Shown: one piece after another, positions 344-10,889 of the stretch | Numbering within the stretch: position 1 is the first letter of the stretch | Layout: each line of letters starts with the position of its first letter | From: Anaerolineae bacterium | GTDB lineage: Bacteria; Desulfobacterota; Desulfobacteria; Desulfobacterales; ETH-SRB1 | Direction: 5' to 3' | Length of the DNA: 64,000 nt | Assembly (NCBI GenBank): GCA_035529315.1 | Contig: DATKWZ010000045.1 | Location: forward strand, 1-64,000 | The notes under the pieces: generated by a model | Databases searched by the model: none | What the model was told of the DNA's origin: nothing | Seen by the model: only the letters and a program-made list of their open reading frames with translations | Program-made: the position numbers and the translations under genes

Positions 344-604
344 TCATTCATAACGAGTCCACATCCTAATGACTTTAACCACTTTTTCGTCATCAAGAAC
401 CTGATAGACTAACCGGTGCTGTATGTTAATTCGCCGGGAAAAGGCCCCGGATAAATCACCTAATAACTTTTCGAAAGGTGGGGGGTTCTGGCAAGGATTC
501 TTAAGAAAGATTTCAATCAGATTTTCGGCTTTTGGGCGCAGCCCGGCAGCGGAAAGCTTTTTGGCGTCTTTTTGAGCATGTTTAGTGAAAACTACTTGCC
601 ACAT
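344..604 (-). CDS. YoeB/Txe-family toxin of a type II toxin-antitoxin pair
   Basis: An 86-residue protein of the RelE superfamily, Txe/YoeB branch, which cleaves mRNA on the ribosome in known members. The conserved body is visible: the LSGAFSRRI segment with the catalytic-type Arg, followed by HRLVYQV. Family members usually end in a His-Tyr pair (MWTHY-like endings are common), but here the ending is MWTRYE, so the position of the catalytic His is Arg84. Its start codon overlaps the antitoxin stop codon (TAATG), so translation is coupled. Loss of the His could make this a weakened or dead toxin; that is inference from one codon (CGT instead of CAT). Confidence 0.85.
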   Translation of the reverse strand: MWQVVFTKHAQKDAKKLSAAGLRPKAENLIEIFLKNPCQNPPPFEKLLGDLSGAFSRRINIQHRLVYQVLDDEKVVKVIRMWTRYE

Positions 605-846
605 TACCAGTCAAGTTCCTGAGTGCATTCCTCGATTGGCGTGGCTAACCCTCCCCGAATTGATTCCCGCATACCAGGAATATTTAGCAGGTACATGGTT
701 TCCTGAATAGCGCGCCAGTCATCCTCGGAAATAAGTACAGCGCTGCCCCGCTTTCCCTTTATAATAATCGGTTCGTGAGAAGAGGCTGCTTCGTCAATAA
801 GTCGATAAAGCTTTGATCTTGCTTCAGTAGCTGCTATTGTCGGCAT
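604..846 (-). CDS. YefM/Phd-family antitoxin
   Basis: An 80-residue antitoxin that should bind its operator through the N-terminal YefM/Phd fold and neutralise the downstream toxin through its C-terminus. The N-terminus (TIAATEARSKLYRLIDEAA, then PIIIKGKRGSAVLISEDDW) is the typical Phd/YefM fold, and the C-terminal half (MRESIRGG onward) is the toxin-binding tail. It is transcribed first, as usual for the family, and its stop overlaps the toxin start. The ribosome binding site is weak (AAAAGGTAAATC before ATG). Family autoregulation by the complex is expected, but I see no clear operator palindrome. Confidence 0.88.
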   Translation of the reverse strand: MPTIAATEARSKLYRLIDEAASSHEPIIIKGKRGSAVLISEDDWRAIQETMYLLNIPGMRESIRGGLATPIEECTQELDW

Positions 847-1858: not shown

Positions 1859-3358
1859 TTACTGTTCACCAAGGTCTTCGGCAATTTCACGGAACTGTTC
1901 GAGAGCGGCTTCGAGGTCTTCAACTATTTCTTGTGCGAGAATTCCGGGATCAGGCAGGTTTTCGGAATCTTCAAGGCTTTTATCCCTGAGCCAGACAATG
2001 TCGAGGCTGGCTTTGTCTCGATTTATAAGTTCTTCATAATCAAAGGCGCGCCACCGGCCGTCTGAACCGTTTTCAGTCCATGTTTCTTTGCGTTTGTTTC
2101 TGTTTTTCGGATTATAGCATTTTACGAATTCATCCAGGTCTTCTCGTTTTAAAGGATTTGTCTTGAGTGTAAAATGCACGTTGGTTCGCAAATCATATAT
2201 CCAGAGTTTTTTTGTCCAGGGTTTTTCAGAAGCTGGCTTGCGGTCAAAAAAGAGGACGTTTGCTTTTACGCCCTGTGCATAGAACAGGCCTGTCGGCAAG
2301 CGGAGAAGTGTGTGTACCTCACATTCGTGAAGAAGTTTTCTTCGGATATTTTCTCCGGCCCCGCCTTCGAAAAGCACATTGTCTGGGACGACGATTGCAG
2401 CACGGCCATGTTGTTTAAGCAGAGTTTTTACATGCTGGACAAAGTTGAGCTGTTTGTTTGAAGTTGTGGACCAGAAATCCTCTCTTTCAATGATATCCTT
2501 TTCCTTGGAAATCTGGCCCTTACCATTAACAATTGTTGTGCTGCTCTTTTTGCCAAATGGTGGGTTAGTCATAACTACATAGAATCGATCGCCGGGGTCG
2601 GCAGCCAGAGAATCCGCTACCACAAGAGGCAATTCACTTCCGTTTGAGGTTATACCATGCAGCATGAGATTCATGGCGCAGAGTCGTGCAGTGTTTTGTA
2701 CCAGCTCCCATCCCTTGAAGGTTTTCTCCTTGAGCTTCTTTTTTTCTTCCGTGGTCATGTTGGGATAGTGCTTTACGATATAATCATGCGCGGCCAAGAA
2801 GAATCCACCTGTGCCACACGCTGGATCGCATATGGTTTCGCCAGGCTTGGGCTGGATAACGTCAATAATTGCCCGAATGAGCGGACGGGGTGTAAAATAT
2901 TGGCCTGCCCCTGTTTTTGTATCCTGAGCATTTTTTTCCAAAAGACCTTCATAAGCATCGCCCTTAACGTCGGCACTCATTATTGACCAGTTTTCTTTAT
3001 CAATAAGATCAACAATCAACCGCCGCAGTTTTGCAGGGTCCTGAAATTTATTTTGTGATTTGTTAAAGATCAGTCCGAGCAGGCCTTTTCCTTTTCCCAG
3101 ATTTTCCAGAACATGACGGTAATGATCAAACAGATCATCACCATCCTTTTTTATCAAACTCTGCCAGTCATAATTTTTCGGGACGATTTCCGGTGTCTGC
3201 CTGCCTGTCAGGCTCGGGTAAAGCTTTGTTCGCTCGTCTGCCATCTTGAGAAACAGCAGATATGTGAGCTGCTCAACGTAGTCGCCATACGACATTCCAT
3301 CATCACGGAGGACGTTACAGTAGTTCCATAATTTTTGTACAATTGCAGAAGTATTCAT
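1859..3358 (-). CDS. hsdM: Type I restriction-modification system, M subunit (N6-adenine methyltransferase)
   Basis: A 499-residue HsdM, which transfers methyl groups from S-adenosylmethionine to adenine within the sequence read by HsdS. It is also needed for restriction by the full complex. The N-terminal HsdM_N helical region covers residues 1 to about 125. The SAM-binding motif I, DPACGTGGF, is at residues 178-186 and the catalytic motif IV, NPPF, at 265-268. Both are intact and the length is normal for the family. The gene starts 9 bases after the ATPase gene ends and is the last intact gene of the hsdR-to-hsdM operon; a truncated fic follows. Confidence 0.96.
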   Translation of the reverse strand: MNTSAIVQKLWNYCNVLRDDGMSYGDYVEQLTYLLFLKMADERTKLYPSLTGRQTPEIVPKNYDWQSLIKKDGDDLFDHYRHVLENLGKGKGLLGLIFNKSQNKFQDPAKLRRLIVDLIDKENWSIMSADVKGDAYEGLLEKNAQDTKTGAGQYFTPRPLIRAIIDVIQPKPGETICDPACGTGGFFLAAHDYIVKHYPNMTTEEKKKLKEKTFKGWELVQNTARLCAMNLMLHGITSNGSELPLVVADSLAADPGDRFYVVMTNPPFGKKSSTTIVNGKGQISKEKDIIEREDFWSTTSNKQLNFVQHVKTLLKQHGRAAIVVPDNVLFEGGAGENIRRKLLHECEVHTLLRLPTGLFYAQGVKANVLFFDRKPASEKPWTKKLWIYDLRTNVHFTLKTNPLKREDLDEFVKCYNPKNRNKRKETWTENGSDGRWRAFDYEELINRDKASLDIVWLRDKSLEDSENLPDPGILAQEIVEDLEAALEQFREIAEDLGEQ

Positions 3359-3367
3359 TCGCTCATC

Positions 3368-6103
3368 TTATATATTTGTTTTGCTGAAACCATATTTTAA
3401 CTCCCTTTTTTCAAAAGCTGTTTCTCCACCCTCTAATATCCTGCAGACTTCTTCACGAATACCTTTTTTTGTTTTTCTATCTGTATGTTCCAAAGATCCA
3501 CTTCTATATGAAAGAACCTCATCAGTATTGTTCGCGACTATTACCTGTTCTGCATCAGCATTAACAACCAGATTTGCATTATGAGTTGCAATAATCACCT
3601 GTCGATATTTCTTAATTTCCTTAAATAATGGTACGAGGTCCTCCATTATAAATTCATTATCAAGGTCATCTTCTGGTTGATCAAAAACAAAAGGACTTCC
3701 AAACGGATCTGTTGCCAATTTCATACAAATGTAAAAAGTACCTCTCTGACCAACTGATAACTTTTCAGGTTTTTTCCCTTTATATTCAATAACGGCATTT
3801 ATTGTTAAATATCTAATACGATAGCGGGATAAGTAAAGATACTCAAACATGTCAAATCCCACATCCTTAAGAAAAAAATCATCATTAAGAGCGAACTCAT
3901 CAAGGTTTATTAATTTCCCTTCGTTATCAGATATAATTTTTTCATTACCAATTAATTTTAGAAATGATTCATATGAATCAACTTTAATCTTAGCTTTTAT
4001 TCGATCTAATTGTGTATGAGTAGCTGTGCTTCTAAATTTCTGACCATTTAATAAACCAGAAAGTCCATCATAAAATTTTCCCACGTTAAAATTTATTTGA
4101 GCATATATCTGGATATCTTTAAGTAGATTTTTAACCAAACTCTTTTGTATCTGGCTCCAATTTTCAGGGCCCTCTTTCAAAGAAGTAAAAGCCCTATCAA
4201 CATTCTTCTTTTGTTGTGTCAAATCTGAATTAATATTATCTTTGAATAAAACCCGATTATTAATACGCTTTTCTAATTCTTCAGTTTTTCTCTTTATTTC
4301 GTTTATTTTATCAACACTCTTATCAATAATACCTTGATATTGATTAACTTTCGTTAACAAACCGCTAATATCTTGATCAATCCCTTGGTTTTTAAACTCC
4401 TCAACAATATTTTTATTGTTTCCTTTGAGTTTATTGATCTCGTTTGTCAGTTTTTCTTGCGATTTCTGAATACTTGTTTCAAGTGGTGAAAAATCAATAT
4501 TTGGCAGGCTGCTAACGAGTTGGCCTGATTCATTTATCTCTTTGATCAGACGTTCTATCTCCGCTTTATAATTTTCAGAAGTTGACTGTAATTCTTCTAA
4601 CCGTTTAATTAATATTTCTTTATTATTAATACTGATACTGTTTTTCTTATAATCCTCGATAAGCTTTTTGTTTTTATCTGTTGTTATTGTTTTAATTAAA
4701 GATTTATTTTCTTTAATTCGCTTATTATTATATTCTTCACTATTAATTATATTTCCATCAGTGTCTGTGGTTATAAACCAAGATTTTATGCTTATTATTT
4801 TTTCGAGCAAATTCGACAAATCATATTCGTACTTGGGTACATCTTCTTCAATGCTTATCCTTAATAGGTTTTTAATGTGTTTACTCAACTGTTCCGGATT
4901 TTTAACAATCTGCTTTATTTCTCCCTGTCTGACATGTAAGTAAGACAGAGGTTCTTTGTCGGAAAAATTATAATGGATAATTTCGCCATCTGATTTTTCA
5001 TAATCGACTTTAAAGTTAGTAGGATTTATATTAACAATATTATCATCAATATTCCGCTCTTCACCAGAGTGGAAAGTTTTATATAAACAATCAAGCAAAA
5101 TACTTTTACCAGTTCCACGGCCACCAATAATAGAAACTAAATTTGGATTTAATGGAATGTCAGCACTATTAAATGTGATATTCTCATTATTGATAATCTT
5201 AGCATCTGCAATTATTCTGCTGAAAAAAGGTTTGGGGAAATCAATCTGTGGCGATAGATCTTGGATACATACCCTTTCAATTGGTTCAAAAAGAATCTGT
5301 TTGAAGCCTTCAAAAGTTGGATCCGCTTTAATCCAGGTGGTAGTATTAAGAAGATATTGATCGTGGGAATCAGAAAAGACAACTGACGATTTATTAAATT
5401 TCTCCAAATAAAACTTAGCTTCATTTTGATGATAACTATTCCAATTTGGGAACTCACAGATATCTACACATTCCTTCATCAACTTTTCTTTATATGGGCC
5501 AAGGGTATTTAACAGCTCTTTTTCATCAGCACTGTCAGCCGGATGAGCTATCTCTTGATCAAAGCCATGGTCCTTGTTTCCATTATGAACTATAATTAAT
5601 CCACCTAACTTATGAGCTAATTGAGCTGTTTTTTCTAAATCTACGGCAATCTGAAACAATCCTTTATCATAGCTGCCATCACCTGAATTTTGAACATCAC
5701 TTTTGGCGCAATCAATTTTTGATAGAAAAGAATTTATCAAAAAATCTTTATCAACCTTTTGTATATGACTTATCCTATGTTGGATATAGGGAGGGAAAAC
5801 CACGAGAAAATGAACACCTCGTTCACCACTTGACGCTTTAAGCTCAACTCCTGGAAAAAAAGTAATAACATCTTTGATATTATCACCATTTTCAGTCTTT
5901 TCATTTTCCCAGACACTCCATATTTCATCAAGACCATCAACGTTAGAATGATCGGTGATTGCAATTACAGCAACATTCTTAGTGATTGCATTATTGAAAA
6001 TATCTTTAATTTCGAGTTTTGCGCGGTTCTCTCTTGAATAAATTGAGTGTATATGTAAATCCCATTTTCTCCATTCTGAACCTTTTGGATATTTGGATAG
6101 CAT
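3368..6103 (-). CDS. PHP-domain / SMC-like ABC ATPase embedded in the type I RM operon
   Basis: A 911-residue two-part protein. Residues 1 to about 250 form a PHP-type metal-dependent phosphoesterase domain: DLHIHS at 15-20, TDH at 50-52, Glu87 in FPGVELKA, His98, His173, and SDSH at 244-247. All the expected metal ligands are present. Residues from about 320 to the end form an ABC/SMC-like ATPase: Walker A GGRGTGKS (327-334), a long Lys/Glu-rich coiled coil of roughly 300 residues, the signature LSVGQR (from 782), Walker B FVFDQPEDD (from 805) and the H-loop ATHNANL (from 839). Proteins of this build are annotated elsewhere as TrlF-family AAA-like ATPases. It lies between hsdS (17-base gap) and hsdM (9-base gap), where other type I systems carry anticodon nucleases such as PrrC. 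An ATP-gated nuclease or phosphoesterase defence effector is plausible but unproven. Base composition is AT-richer than hsdR. Confidence 0.85.
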   Translation of the reverse strand: MLSKYPKGSEWRKWDLHIHSIYSRENRAKLEIKDIFNNAITKNVAVIAITDHSNVDGLDEIWSVWENEKTENGDNIKDVITFFPGVELKASSGERGVHFLVVFPPYIQHRISHIQKVDKDFLINSFLSKIDCAKSDVQNSGDGSYDKGLFQIAVDLEKTAQLAHKLGGLIIVHNGNKDHGFDQEIAHPADSADEKELLNTLGPYKEKLMKECVDICEFPNWNSYHQNEAKFYLEKFNKSSVVFSDSHDQYLLNTTTWIKADPTFEGFKQILFEPIERVCIQDLSPQIDFPKPFFSRIIADAKIINNENITFNSADIPLNPNLVSIIGGRGTGKSILLDCLYKTFHSGEERNIDDNIVNINPTNFKVDYEKSDGEIIHYNFSDKEPLSYLHVRQGEIKQIVKNPEQLSKHIKNLLRISIEEDVPKYEYDLSNLLEKIISIKSWFITTDTDGNIINSEEYNNKRIKENKSLIKTITTDKNKKLIEDYKKNSISINNKEILIKRLEELQSTSENYKAEIERLIKEINESGQLVSSLPNIDFSPLETSIQKSQEKLTNEINKLKGNNKNIVEEFKNQGIDQDISGLLTKVNQYQGIIDKSVDKINEIKRKTEELEKRINNRVLFKDNINSDLTQQKKNVDRAFTSLKEGPENWSQIQKSLVKNLLKDIQIYAQINFNVGKFYDGLSGLLNGQKFRSTATHTQLDRIKAKIKVDSYESFLKLIGNEKIISDNEGKLINLDEFALNDDFFLKDVGFDMFEYLYLSRYRIRYLTINAVIEYKGKKPEKLSVGQRGTFYICMKLATDPFGSPFVFDQPEDDLDNEFIMEDLVPLFKEIKKYRQVIIATHNANLVVNADAEQVIVANNTDEVLSYRSGSLEHTDRKTKKGIREEVCRILEGGETAFEKRELKYGFSKTNI

Positions 6104-6120
6104 CTTTCACCTTTCAATAA

Positions 6121-7326
6121 TTAAAGTTGCCCTGAAAAAGCTTTTTTAAGGATTGATTGTCTTAGTCGTTGGCAACGAGCACTACCTTCAGTTGTGCTTA
6201 ATGTGGCGCTATCTGCAATAGACCACAAACGTTGAACTTCTGATTCGATTTGTATCTGGAGTTCAACACTTGGTAACGGAATCCTCAGAGCTTTAAATCT
6301 CTTTTGTGTGAGATTAACACCACTATCCGAAATTCCAGTCTTAAGTTCATTGATTGATTCCTTAATTTGAGGAGCGTTAAGTACCAGTTCCAAATAGCCA
6401 GGTAGTGCAACTTCATGATTGCATCGAAGTCTGTAGACCTTATCACACAGTATGAGCTTTGACCTTGTGGACCTGACAAGACAGCAGACACCGACTCTTT
6501 TTCTTGGCCCGGCTCGTGTAACAAGTAAGTCATTTTTTTGCAATTCGAGATGCCGTCTTGGTTCAATCGATTCAGGTAGACGTTTGTTTTCCCACTCTAT
6601 GTACTGTAGAGCCTGAACTGCACTCGTTTTGATCACACCCCACTCTGGTCCATTCGCTTGCAGCCTGTCACACTTAGGACTCCAACCTTGGTCCAGGGTA
6701 ACGAGAGCTGATTCAATTGGTTGCCAATTTTCAACGAAAAAGCTTGTATTTTCAGTGATAGTATTGATAAGTGTTCCTTCAACAGCGGCTTTGAGGACAG
6801 AGGCTTTGTATCGCTTTAGGTTGGCTTTTACGCGCTTGAGGTTTTCAACAGCTTCATCCAGGCGGGAAAATTGCTTTTCGATCTCTGCTACAATGAGTTT
6901 TTGTTCATAATGAGGGGCTAATGGAATTATTAGATCTATTACATTGTTAATTGTAACTTGAGGTTGTGCAGATCCGGTTACTATTTTTGATTTATCAGCA
7001 GATTGTAGTGCATAAAACAAATATTTTTTTATATCTTTAATTTCAGATGGTGTTTCTAATACAAGGGAATTATTTGTAATATAGCATTTTGCAGGTGACC
7101 AGTTGATTTTACCACTATATGCGCCCCTACAAGATATTAAAACCTGTTCTTCTTCATATAGATAATCTGTATAAAAACCTATTATTCCATTTGCACCAAA
7201 AACAGGGTATCCTCTTTCTGTGAGCTTCTTTGTTGGTAAACCTTTACCGTATTTAATATTTACTATTTTTCCCAGGTTAACTGTGGTCCAACCGGAAGGA
7301 AGCTTATTTTTATTTGCTATGCCCAT
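6121..7326 (-). CDS. hsdS: Type I restriction-modification system, S (specificity) subunit
   Basis: A 401-residue HsdS with two target-recognition domains that read the two halves of a bipartite DNA site. The first lies at residues 1 to about 145. It is followed by a conserved spacer helix (QFSRLDEAVENLKRVKANLK), the second domain at about 200-355, and a second helical repeat at the C-terminus (RLRQSILKKAFSGQL). The normal length and two spacers indicate a full, not half-size, S subunit. No Shine-Dalgarno is close to the ATG; an AGGAGG lies about 25 bases upstream inside the 44-codon ORF that overlaps the start, so translation is probably coupled. Confidence 0.94.
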   Translation of the reverse strand: MGIANKNKLPSGWTTVNLGKIVNIKYGKGLPTKKLTERGYPVFGANGIIGFYTDYLYEEEQVLISCRGAYSGKINWSPAKCYITNNSLVLETPSEIKDIKKYLFYALQSADKSKIVTGSAQPQVTINNVIDLIIPLAPHYEQKLIVAEIEKQFSRLDEAVENLKRVKANLKRYKASVLKAAVEGTLINTITENTSFFVENWQPIESALVTLDQGWSPKCDRLQANGPEWGVIKTSAVQALQYIEWENKRLPESIEPRRHLELQKNDLLVTRAGPRKRVGVCCLVRSTRSKLILCDKVYRLRCNHEVALPGYLELVLNAPQIKESINELKTGISDSGVNLTQKRFKALRIPLPSVELQIQIESEVQRLWSIADSATLSTTEGSARCQRLRQSILKKAFSGQL

Positions 7327-7451
7327 TGTTTCAATCTACGCCGCCAACGCCTCCTGCCTGCAAACTCTCGTTTGCGCAGATAAACATTCAATTCACCCGC
7401 CTGCGCTATGCGCGCGGACAAGTCCAGAATATCGTTCAACATGCTCTTCAT
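7317..7451 (-). CDS. 44-residue bridging ORF between the ORF6N gene and hsdS
   Basis: ATG at 7451 overlaps the TGA of the ORF6N gene (ATGA), and its TAG lies inside the first codons of hsdS, so this ORF exactly fills the gap between the two genes with overlaps at both ends. The predicted peptide begins MKSMLNDILDLSARIAQAGE and ends in an arginine-rich stretch (GRRRWRRRLKQWA). I do not recognise it. It may be a real small component, or only a coupling device that delivers ribosomes to hsdS, which lacks a good ribosome binding site. Confidence 0.4.
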   Translation of the reverse strand: MKSMLNDILDLSARIAQAGELNVYLRKREFAGRRRWRRRLKQWA

Positions 7452-8008
7452 GGTGTTTTCTTCTTCCCGGTTTTCTTACCATAGGCACGTTGTTTTTCTT
7501 TTACTGTAAAACCAATCTTTTTTTTCGGTTTGTATTCAACTGCCAAAAGCTGATCCAGTGTTTCGAAAACAACTCGAAAACGATCTTCTGTAAGCTGCTT
7601 TAATTCCGACAATTCTTTTCTCAAATCTTTATTATCTAAAAGTGCCTGCCGTAGTTTTGTAAATGTCCGCATTATCAGGATATTAACAGCAATAGCCCGG
7701 TCACTATTCAAAACACCGGATAGCATGGCAACACCTTGCTCAGTAAACACGTAAGGCATTTTCCTGACACCGCCTCGCCCTGTTTTTTTTGATGTCACAA
7801 ATTGTGATATCAAAGATTCATATTCATCTTTTGAGAGTTGGAACATAAAATCATCAGGAAATCTTTTTTTGTGTCTCTTTACAGCTTGATTTAGCACTCT
7901 TGTTTCAACCCCATATAAATCTGCAAGATCCGTGTCCAGCATTACTTTCACCTGCCGAATCACATAAATTTTACTTGCAATTCTTTCTACCGACACAATG
8001 TCATTCAT
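7448..8008 (-). CDS. ORF6N domain-containing DNA-binding protein
   Basis: A 186-residue protein with an N-terminal ORF6N domain, known from phage antirepressor-like proteins and from genes embedded in type I restriction operons. Visible landmarks are the start (VERIASKIYVIRQVKVMLD, then DLADLYGVETRVLNQAVKRH), PDDFMFQLSKDEY, and PYVFTEQGVAMLSGVLNSDRA. A helical stretch around 110-145 and a lysine-rich tail follow. It sits between hsdR (64-base gap) and the bridging ORF. Its role is not established; a regulator of the restriction operon or an immunity component is the usual guess. Confidence 0.88.
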   Translation of the reverse strand: MNDIVSVERIASKIYVIRQVKVMLDTDLADLYGVETRVLNQAVKRHKKRFPDDFMFQLSKDEYESLISQFVTSKKTGRGGVRKMPYVFTEQGVAMLSGVLNSDRAIAVNILIMRTFTKLRQALLDNKDLRKELSELKQLTEDRFRVVFETLDQLLAVEYKPKKKIGFTVKEKQRAYGKKTGKKKTP

Positions 8009-8072: not shown

Positions 8073-10889
8073 TTATGCCACAAGCCTTTCATTTAAATCA
8101 TCTAAGATGATATTTAATTCTTCACCGAATAATTGATAAACCTTTCCAATACCACCTGCCTGCGAAAAAGGCGCATATTCAAAATCATCTGTTTCAATGC
8201 TTAAGTTTCCTGCAATATGATCACGGATCATCTCAAGCCAGCGAATCTGTTCTTCCGTGAACTTTTTACCCTGCTGTGCCAACCATGCATTGAAATTTGT
8301 ATCAACCTTTTCCGGAAACGGCACAAGCTCGTTTTCCTGATCAAGCGCATACCGCACAAGAGACACCAAATCCGTTAAAATATGCGGGCCGCTTGCACCA
8401 CGAACCTTTGACTTTTCAAGAGCAGCATAGGCCATCCAGAGATTATTTTCAGTCCAAAGATGAGGCGGCTTTTTTATGGTATCTGCAAGCTCTTTTATAT
8501 TTTCAAACCGTAAACGCGCCTTGTACGGCCTGGAGTAAAGAATCTGCAGGGCTGTGATTTCATCCTTATTTTTCTCAATAAACTTCTTAAAGGACTCGAT
8601 CATGCCTTTTGCTTTTTCCATGGCCTCTGCGCTGAAGCCTGCTTCTATAACCTTATCAGGACTGACATTATCAATGATCTGCTCGTTCTTTTTCTTAATC
8701 TCTATCAATAGATTCCGAAGCTCTGGATTATGCAGGGGCTTGACCGCGTTTTTTATCAGGCTTGTTGCAGCTTCCTGAATTTCTTCTTCGGAAGGCTGTG
8801 CCGTGCTGCCTGCCTCGCCCAGCTCGGTGCAGGCAAGTTCAACCTGTTTGTCAGGATTAATGGCATTTACAAGATCATACGTAAGCTCACCCAGGCTTTT
8901 GCCATCTGCAAGCTCAATTATCTTTGAACTGTCTTCTTTTGTAAGGTTTTTGTTTAAACGCGCAATGCGGACAGCAATTGAGGAAATAACATCCGGTTCT
9001 GTGTTTCCAAGACTTACAGCTTGGAGAAGCTTTTCAAAAGAGACCGATTTTTTCCGGTCCATGGGCCTTGAGTCGGTCTTATCCCGCTCGCAGACACCAA
9101 CAGCATCCACAATGACATAGTGATCCTTGGTTTTTGCATCAGATGTTACAGATTGCAGGTCATCATCATTTATAACACGTACGCCCCGACCCTTCATCTG
9201 CTCAAAATATCCGAGGGATTTTACGCTGCGCATGAACATTACAACTTCAAGAGGCTTGATGTCAGTGCCGGTTGCGATCATATCCACGGTGACCGCTATT
9301 CGCGGAAAGTAGAAGTTGCGAAATTCGGCGATGAGTTCATCCGTCTTTTTGCCGGTTGTCTTGTAGGTAATTTTCTGGGCAAAGTCATTGCCCTTTGCAA
9401 ATTCCTCGCGCACAATCTTGACAATGTCTTCAGCGTGGCTGTCATCTTTTGCAAAAATTACGGTCTTTGGAACCTCGGTCCGGCCGGGAAAAATATCTGT
9501 AAACAGCTTGTCACGAAAAGTACGGATAACAGTGCGGATCTGATCCTTAGCAACCACATCGCGGTCCAGTTGATTGGGGGTGTATTCGAGGTCTTCGTCC
9601 AGCCGCTCCCAGCGCACAGATCGGGTTTCACGGTCCCGTTTGTCTACATAATAACCAGCTTCGACAATAGAACCACCTTCTGTAATTTCGGTCTTGATGC
9701 GGTACACGTCGTAATTCACGTTCACGCCGTCGGCCACAGCCTCCTCATGCCCATATTCCATGACAAGATTCTGATTGAAAAAACCAAAAGTCTGTTTGCT
9801 GGGTGTGGCGGTAAGGCCTATAAGATATGAATCAAAATATTCCAGCACCTGGCGCCAAAGATTGTAAATGGAACGGTGACACTCGTCTGTAATTATAAAG
9901 TCAAAGGTCTCAATAGGGATGGCCGGATTATATTCTATGGGCGGCACCTCACCATAGACTTTTTCCAAGCCCTGAACAGATTTTTCCTCATCCTCCTCAG
10001 CAAGATCCTCACCCTTAAGCATTGAATAAAGACGCTGGATAGTGCAGATGCAGACTCGTGCAGTGAAATCCAGATTTTTTGAAGTAAGGCGTTGAACAAT
10101 GAATTCTTCGCTGAATTTATAGTTGTTATAGGGAGAAACATACTGCTGGAATTCCTTAAGGGTCTGTCTGCCCAGATTGCCGCGGTCAACAAGAAACAAA
10201 ATCCGGCGTGCCTTTGCAAACTTTATAAGCCTGTAAATAAAGCTGATGGCAGTAAATGTCTTGCCTGATCCTGTGGCCATCTGTATAAGAGCGCGTGGAC
10301 GGTTTTCTGAAAAAGATTTTTCCAGTTTTTTTATAGCCCTGATCTGGGCAGACCAGAGGCCTTCTTCAATGAGCGTAGGCATCTGTTTCAGGCGCAGATT
10401 CAGGGTGGAAGGCTTGCCAAAAGGGGACTGTGTTTCAAGCATATTCCCTTTAACTAAAGGCGGGTCTTCATTTATCCAATCTGCCAATGTTTCAGGGCGA
10501 TGGAAAGAAAAGACATTCCGGGAACGAGGGTCAGGTTCAAGGTCATTTGTAAAACGGGTCTCCACACCTGTGGATTCATAACAGAAAGGGAGTGGCCGAT
10601 ACCAGGCGGGAAGCTGCTCGGGCAGGCCGGTTTTGTATTTGTCGGACTGGATTTCAACGCCTGTAAGGGTAGTTCCGACTTTTTTTGCCTCAACAACCCC
10701 TGATGCCTTGCCATTTACATAAAGGAGATAATCTGCAAAGCCATGCCCCTGATTTAACGGGAACTCCCTGATGGCCACCCCTTTTTTTGCATGTATATTG
10801 ACGCCTGCGAGATCCTGGACATCCCAGCCGGACAAGTCCAACATTTTGTCGATGGTTTCCCTGGCTTTTTGTTCAGGTGTTTTGGTCAT
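8073..10889 (-). CDS. hsdR: Type I restriction-modification system, R subunit (EcoEI-like)
   Basis: A 938-residue HsdR, the motor and nuclease of the type I complex. The N-terminal PD-(D/E)XK nuclease motif is visible as Asp53 with Glu67-Ala-Lys69 (ADYLLYV … VVEAKK). The helicase part has Walker A ATGSGKT at 205-211, DECH at 335-338, LTATP at 359-363, and the motif VI-like region QMKGRGVRV. The C-terminal domain resembles the EcoEI R-protein C-terminus. All catalytic motifs are intact, so restriction should be functional. It is the first gene of the minus-strand operon; a leader-like repeat with promoter and terminator lies about 290 bases upstream. Confidence 0.95.
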   Translation of the reverse strand: MTKTPEQKARETIDKMLDLSGWDVQDLAGVNIHAKKGVAIREFPLNQGHGFADYLLYVNGKASGVVEAKKVGTTLTGVEIQSDKYKTGLPEQLPAWYRPLPFCYESTGVETRFTNDLEPDPRSRNVFSFHRPETLADWINEDPPLVKGNMLETQSPFGKPSTLNLRLKQMPTLIEEGLWSAQIRAIKKLEKSFSENRPRALIQMATGSGKTFTAISFIYRLIKFAKARRILFLVDRGNLGRQTLKEFQQYVSPYNNYKFSEEFIVQRLTSKNLDFTARVCICTIQRLYSMLKGEDLAEEDEEKSVQGLEKVYGEVPPIEYNPAIPIETFDFIITDECHRSIYNLWRQVLEYFDSYLIGLTATPSKQTFGFFNQNLVMEYGHEEAVADGVNVNYDVYRIKTEITEGGSIVEAGYYVDKRDRETRSVRWERLDEDLEYTPNQLDRDVVAKDQIRTVIRTFRDKLFTDIFPGRTEVPKTVIFAKDDSHAEDIVKIVREEFAKGNDFAQKITYKTTGKKTDELIAEFRNFYFPRIAVTVDMIATGTDIKPLEVVMFMRSVKSLGYFEQMKGRGVRVINDDDLQSVTSDAKTKDHYVIVDAVGVCERDKTDSRPMDRKKSVSFEKLLQAVSLGNTEPDVISSIAVRIARLNKNLTKEDSSKIIELADGKSLGELTYDLVNAINPDKQVELACTELGEAGSTAQPSEEEIQEAATSLIKNAVKPLHNPELRNLLIEIKKKNEQIIDNVSPDKVIEAGFSAEAMEKAKGMIESFKKFIEKNKDEITALQILYSRPYKARLRFENIKELADTIKKPPHLWTENNLWMAYAALEKSKVRGASGPHILTDLVSLVRYALDQENELVPFPEKVDTNFNAWLAQQGKKFTEEQIRWLEMIRDHIAGNLSIETDDFEYAPFSQAGGIGKVYQLFGEELNIILDDLNERLVA

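Follow-up and report, generated by a model that had tools for sequence, protein, structure and literature searches.

A TrlF-family gene occupies the interval between hsdS and hsdM of a type I restriction operon in the window, i.e. the whole 64,000-nucleotide stretch of DNA that was analysed. With a probability of about two in three, we consider it to be an exchangeable cargo gene that was captured into this slot, is given co-expression by the operon and acts autonomously as a second, probably abortive, layer of anti-phage defence. In sister operons the same spot is filled by other anti-phage systems, complete in themselves, so TrlF probably serves as an interchangeable second defence line and not as part of the restriction enzyme. 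The operon runs in the order hsdR, ORF6N gene, hsdS, TrlF and hsdM, with the following features.

8073..10889, minus strand: hsdR, EcoAI/EcoEI-like type I restriction subunit (profile matches; GSGKT at 207, DECH at 335)
7448..8008, minus strand: ORF6N-domain gene between hsdR and hsdS (PADLOC candidate PDC-S05)
6121..7326, minus strand: hsdS specificity subunit (profile matches)
3359..6120, no strand assigned: hsdS-hsdM cargo slot with TrlF as occupant (on the basis of sister operons)
3368..6103, minus strand: TrlF-family PHP-ABC ATPase gene, 911 residues (ORF, NF045780 match and ribosome-binding site)
1859..3358, minus strand: hsdM N6-adenine methylase subunit (profile matches; NPPF at 265)

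The preliminary description had placed a 911-residue protein between hsdS and hsdM, and the ORF coordinates confirm this, with 17 bases separating the end of hsdS (6121) from TrlF and 9 bases separating TrlF from the start of hsdM (3358). A ribosome site graded as good (GAAAGGTGAAAG-ATG) lies upstream of the TrlF start, and the plus strand of 3368-6103 contains stops throughout. HsdR, HsdS and HsdM are all of full length with their motifs present, so that the restriction system, and with it the type I operon carrying TrlF, looks intact as judged from sequence. The composition of TrlF is foreign to its host operon, with a GC content of 31.6 % (GC3 24.7) against 45 % in hsdM and hsdR; that of hsdS is 39.1 %. 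The ORF6N gene is a second accessory gene of the operon, has a GC content of 37 % and is related to phage anti-repressors. Downstream of hsdM, two small adjoining ORFs of 86 and 80 residues (344-846, minus strand) resemble a toxin-antitoxin pair of the YefM-YoeB type, by eye only.

Sister operons were found with the HsdM of the window in its phylum and class (HsdM about 58-86 % identical), and 28 of them have the order R-S-M on their DNA, the R or S gene being decayed in a few. The S-M interval measures at least 480 bp in 23 of the 28 and is absent or about 100 bp long in five (L213, L219, L226, L227 and L228), while the hsdR-hsdS junction is mostly closed and exceeds 700 bp in 8 of the 28. 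Typing by Pfam and PADLOC gave the following slot contents.

L193 and L211: Septu, with PtuA in both (626.6 bits in L193) and PtuB in L211 (284.9 bits)
L191: SIR2, HerA and Fic
L192: UG19 reverse transcriptase (RT_UG19, 581 bits)
L210: AbiE (AbiEi/AbiEii)
L197: HEC-01A (653.9 bits) and DUF4276
L194: PDC-M11A
L190: PDC-S01
L196 and L207: RhuM-Fic
L198: Fic and DUF4160
L205, L206, L224 and L225: Schlafen AlbA_2
L201: GIY-YIG
L216, from the genus of the window: HerA-like

Short or unidentified ORFs stand alone in the slots of L204, L218, L221, L223 and L229, and in L195 AbiE lies ahead of hsdM at a locus where hsdR and hsdS had no match. The HerA-like protein of L216 (positions 2364-4355 of that locus, 664 residues) is alone in its S-M slot and resembles known HerA models only weakly (82.7 bits). 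TrlF thus lies between hsd genes, on their strand, in a position filled in sister operons by other defence genes, and these proven or candidate defence systems lend support to the earlier suggestion that the protein is a second defence effector. Since the systems found in the slot are self-contained elsewhere, the position of TrlF implies no binding to HsdRMS.

The distribution of the family is in line with this. Within the phylum of the window, TrlF was detected at E <= 1e-60 in 32 of 395 genomes; at least 577 relatives occur across bacteria, and 138 plasmid records match TrlF, all five inspected plasmid copies being free-standing. The nearest relatives of the window TrlF are likewise free-standing, outside restriction-modification loci and mostly plasmid-borne. 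Among 108 TrlFs, 15 have type I genes as same-strand neighbours, 5 adjoin a large methylase and 55 adjoin neither, the remaining 33 lying too near a contig end, as scored using HMMs from the window's own Hsd proteins, which more distant Hsd types may escape. The five beside a methylase (L046, L058, L067, L084 and L126) adjoin a very large single chain, of type IIG/BREX-like size, and represent a second kind of linkage to restriction-modification. In the phylum set, 3 of 33 TrlFs besides the window copy are embedded in type I loci; chance embedding is roughly estimated at 0.1-0.2 %, the baseline being hsdS density alone (about 188 domain matches over 148 genomes, a gene usually giving two), with general defence-gene clustering left aside.

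On the tree of the 108 TrlFs, a quick LG+G4 reconstruction from divergent sequences, explaining the type I label takes 12 changes, of which supported branches force at least 11. The label is only slightly clustered (12 changes against a shuffled mean of 14.3, with 19 of 500 shuffles as low). The HsdM partners of embedded TrlFs fall into groups that are mutually only 23-32 % identical, and the gene orders, with T for TrlF, include M-S-T-R, M-T-S-R, R-T-S-M, R-M-S-T and M-S-R-T besides R-S-T-M in the window. These tree changes, unrelated partners and varied orders show repeated, independent captures and not one co-evolved pair. The 12 changes rule out a single clade linked to restriction-modification, and the tree, the diversity of HsdM partners and the free-standing copies rule out TrlF as a fixed type I subunit. 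The linkage to hsd genes that the preliminary description proposed to look for holds for 15 of the 108 TrlFs, but most copies are free-standing and no single hsd lineage is involved.

The same observations bear on the possibility that HsdRMS holds TrlF silent, as in PrrC, until a phage anti-restriction block frees it to damage host RNA or nucleotides. Tight operon coupling (the 17- and 9-base gaps), an ABC ATPase joined to a hydrolase as in PrrC, and the location of PrrC itself inside a type I locus (PMC12707154) would suit such a guard. However, a family that is mostly free-standing, with the nearest relatives of the window copy outside restriction-modification loci and embedded members in unrelated hsd lineages with at least five gene orders, lacks consistent linkage to one type I lineage (15 of 108 linked, 12 tree changes), which renders the guard improbable; the PrrC-style sensing of the HsdRMS state put forward earlier is not supported. 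On the contrary, a slot that takes up self-contained systems, a mostly free-standing family and changing hsd partners suggest that TrlF acts by itself.

The NCBIfam model NF045780 ('TrlF family AAA-like ATPase') covers the protein over its full length (profile positions 1-944 of 944) with 490.6 bits against a cut-off of 350 and an E-value of 1.5e-146, so the match is not due to chance. The protein combines a PHP domain (Pfam PHP, 32.8 bits, above cut-off), a split ABC/SMC ATPase (Pfam SMC_N, 37.8 bits, slightly below the cut-off of 40) and the C-terminal LEGG..AF..R..KY motif of the family. Its parts are arranged as follows.

5354..6103, minus strand: PHP domain, residues 1-250 (Pfam; fold nearest RNase AM)
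5312..5335, minus strand: family motif WIKADPTF, residues 257-264 (alignments)
5102..5125, minus strand: Walker A GGRGTGKS, residues 327-334 (G327, G332 and K333 invariant in the alignment)
4124..4831, minus strand: predicted helical or coiled-coil arm, residues 425-660 (AF2 model)
3581..3760, minus strand: ABC signature LSVGQ (782), Walker B DQPEDDLD (808) and THN (840) (motif scan)

An AF2 model was built from an alignment of 38 sequences (pLDDT 83.8, pTM 0.72). As the preliminary description had recommended a structure prediction, it may be added that the model places the PHP domain nearest to RNase AM (9etk, 7ug9), with further N-terminal matches to BAD_1165 (3o0f) and AMP-bound 2yb1, whereas its ATPase part matches the heads of SMC, Rad50 and RecF as well as viral recombination-endonuclease subunits. 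Fold comparison, which leaves the substrate aside, is in favour of a fusion between a PHP phosphoesterase and an ATPase of SMC type, and the fusion recognised earlier is borne out by NF045780, Pfam, the ATPase motifs and the predicted fold. A sequence search of solved structures gave weak ABC transporter matches only, PHROGs had no match for TrlF, and phage records contained a single weak and partial one; our literature search found neither an established function for the family nor a report of TrlF in phage defence.

These folds could also be read as those of a DNA-end processing partner which, like Rad50-Mre11 or SbcCD, degrades the phage DNA ends made by HsdR without host killing. The ATPase fold, nearest to SMC, Rad50, RecF and the viral subunits, is compatible with such an activity, which would complement HsdR; the PHP domain, nevertheless, is nearest to RNase AM and nucleotide phosphoesterases and not to an Mre11-type nuclease, and for most TrlFs no adjoining DNA cutter was found, so that this role appears quite improbable.

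In the PHP site, the metal-binding set of the window TrlF is complete (H17, H19, D51, H52, E87, H98, H173, D245 and H247); the residues listed in the preliminary description were correct, and H98 belongs with them. The site is canonical in its residues and of the active form as far as sequence can tell, the exception being Arg24, where Asp often follows the first HxH motif. The full set of eight scored residues is present in 32 of the 108 TrlFs. Across the 108, H52 is paired with H98 in 57 rows and with H173 in 57 rows, while Y52 is paired with N98 in 43 rows, all of which have His at position 100 and mostly lack H173. As residues 52, 98 and 173 change as a block, the family has two site states. 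Unlike the window copy, its closest, mostly plasmid-borne relatives (L079, L074, L075, L076, L077, L078 and L081) all read HHNYENHCDH at the site, with Y52, N98, H100 and C173, and catalysis therefore need not be the function of the whole family. The 15 type I-embedded TrlFs comprise 7 canonical copies, 7 of the Y52 form, among which two deviate slightly, and one (L117) in which key His residues are missing. In six TrlFs (L055, L056, L063, L052, L053 and L117) the PHP His pair and the final His are replaced (QN..S, QN..A, QQ..R); judging from these replacements, their PHP domain is probably inactive with the ATPase kept.

Genes in the slot could be selfish or regulatory instead of defensive, and TrlF might be a catalytically idle passenger of defence-island drift or an addictive element with the operon as its landing site. 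Altered metal sites in part of the family (QQ..R, QN..S) and the frequency of TrlF on plasmids (138 records) agree with this, yet the window copy has a complete PHP set and lacks none of the ATPase motifs, and the S-M slot is preferentially occupied by defence genes, leaving such a passenger highly improbable. A wider reading can be offered tentatively, as one we would hold with less than even odds: TrlF may be a widespread family of defence effectors with two block-switching PHP sites (H52/H98/H173, or Y52/N98/H100 without H173), and hence two chemistries or an enzyme form and a sensor form, and the type I operons of this lineage may serve as carriers of cargo, their S-M slot admitting effectors of this kind along with whole other defence systems.

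Taking the cargo reading as preferred, the TrlF gene would have been captured into the S-M slot of a type I operon that supplies its co-expression. The SMC/Rad50-like ATPase heads would pair in response to an infection cue, for which DNA ends or structures of phage replication are the likeliest candidates. Pairing would activate the PHP domain, RNase AM-like and multi-metal, and this domain would hydrolyse a phosphodiester or phosphomonoester, the substrate being RNA, single-stranded nucleic acid or a nucleotide. TrlF would thus form a second layer once restriction fails or is bypassed. A function in defence is very likely and independence from HsdRMS likely, PHP hydrolysis gated by the ATPase is somewhat favoured, and the particular trigger and substrate named here must each be regarded as doubtful.

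The analysis gives a strong defence context to a widespread family found in 138 plasmid records, and describes one lineage of type I operons in which a single slot holds complete anti-phage systems that differ from operon to operon; this slot can be mined for new defence genes. The TrlF case is open to simple plating assays, and with its block-wise change of the PHP site the family itself supplies a comparison from which the chemistry could be worked out.

Amongst known systems, Ppl likewise belongs to the PHP-type ATPases, protection against phage has been reported for it, and its C-terminal ATPase region is related to that of TrlF; the window protein scores 109.7 bits against the Ppl cut-off of 1000 (NF042955, PADLOC PDLC02208) and is not a member. 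Membership of RNase AM was likewise rejected, as the RNase RNM model gives 22.2 bits where its cut-off is 375; PHP phosphoesterases, among them RNase AM (Rnm/YciV), share the PHP fold with TrlF (9etk, 7ug9, 2yb1) but have no ATPase. PrrC and RloC resemble TrlF in fusing an ABC ATPase to an effector and in occurring in type I loci, RloC rarely; TrlF, however, has PHP in place of their anticodon-nuclease domain, for which no match was found in Pfam, NCBIfam or PADLOC, and it matched no PrrC or RloC model. PrrC is described as always occurring with type Ic loci and being kept silent by the restriction-modification protein, whereas RloC is rarely linked and is switched by DNA breaks (PMC3874168). 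The linkage pattern of TrlF is RloC-like, and RloC is a better model for it than PrrC.

The name trlF derives from the temperature-restricted-locus (TRL) operon of Photorhabdus, where the mutations recovered with the TRL temperature phenotype included none in trlF and the role of TrlF was left open; a plasmid copy in Yersinia ruckeri lies near hsdM-annotated genes (PMC7554251). The Photorhabdus copy has the same PHP and ABC architecture as that of the window, but is accompanied by trlR/trlG and not by a type I operon. Our literature search did not find TrlF as a recurrent type I cargo, or this S-M slot; PHP-ABC proteins may nevertheless have been noted in type I loci before. Cargo of other protein families is carried between hsd genes in the same manner, namely TgvAB, type I-embedded genes shown to be anti-phage (PMC11411939), DarTG2, which is anti-phage and lies in an island inside a type I system (PMC12255303), and the rlo/mlo genes of Campylobacter jejuni. 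The mlo genes are defined as those between hsdS and hsdM (Miller et al. 2005, as cited in PMC5183652) and, going by that citation, share the position of the window TrlF. Embedded rlo/mlo genes are thus already known, and guilt-by-embedding is an established, published approach (PMC12255303); we rate the block-wise change of the active site and the hypervariable slot as the most interesting features here.
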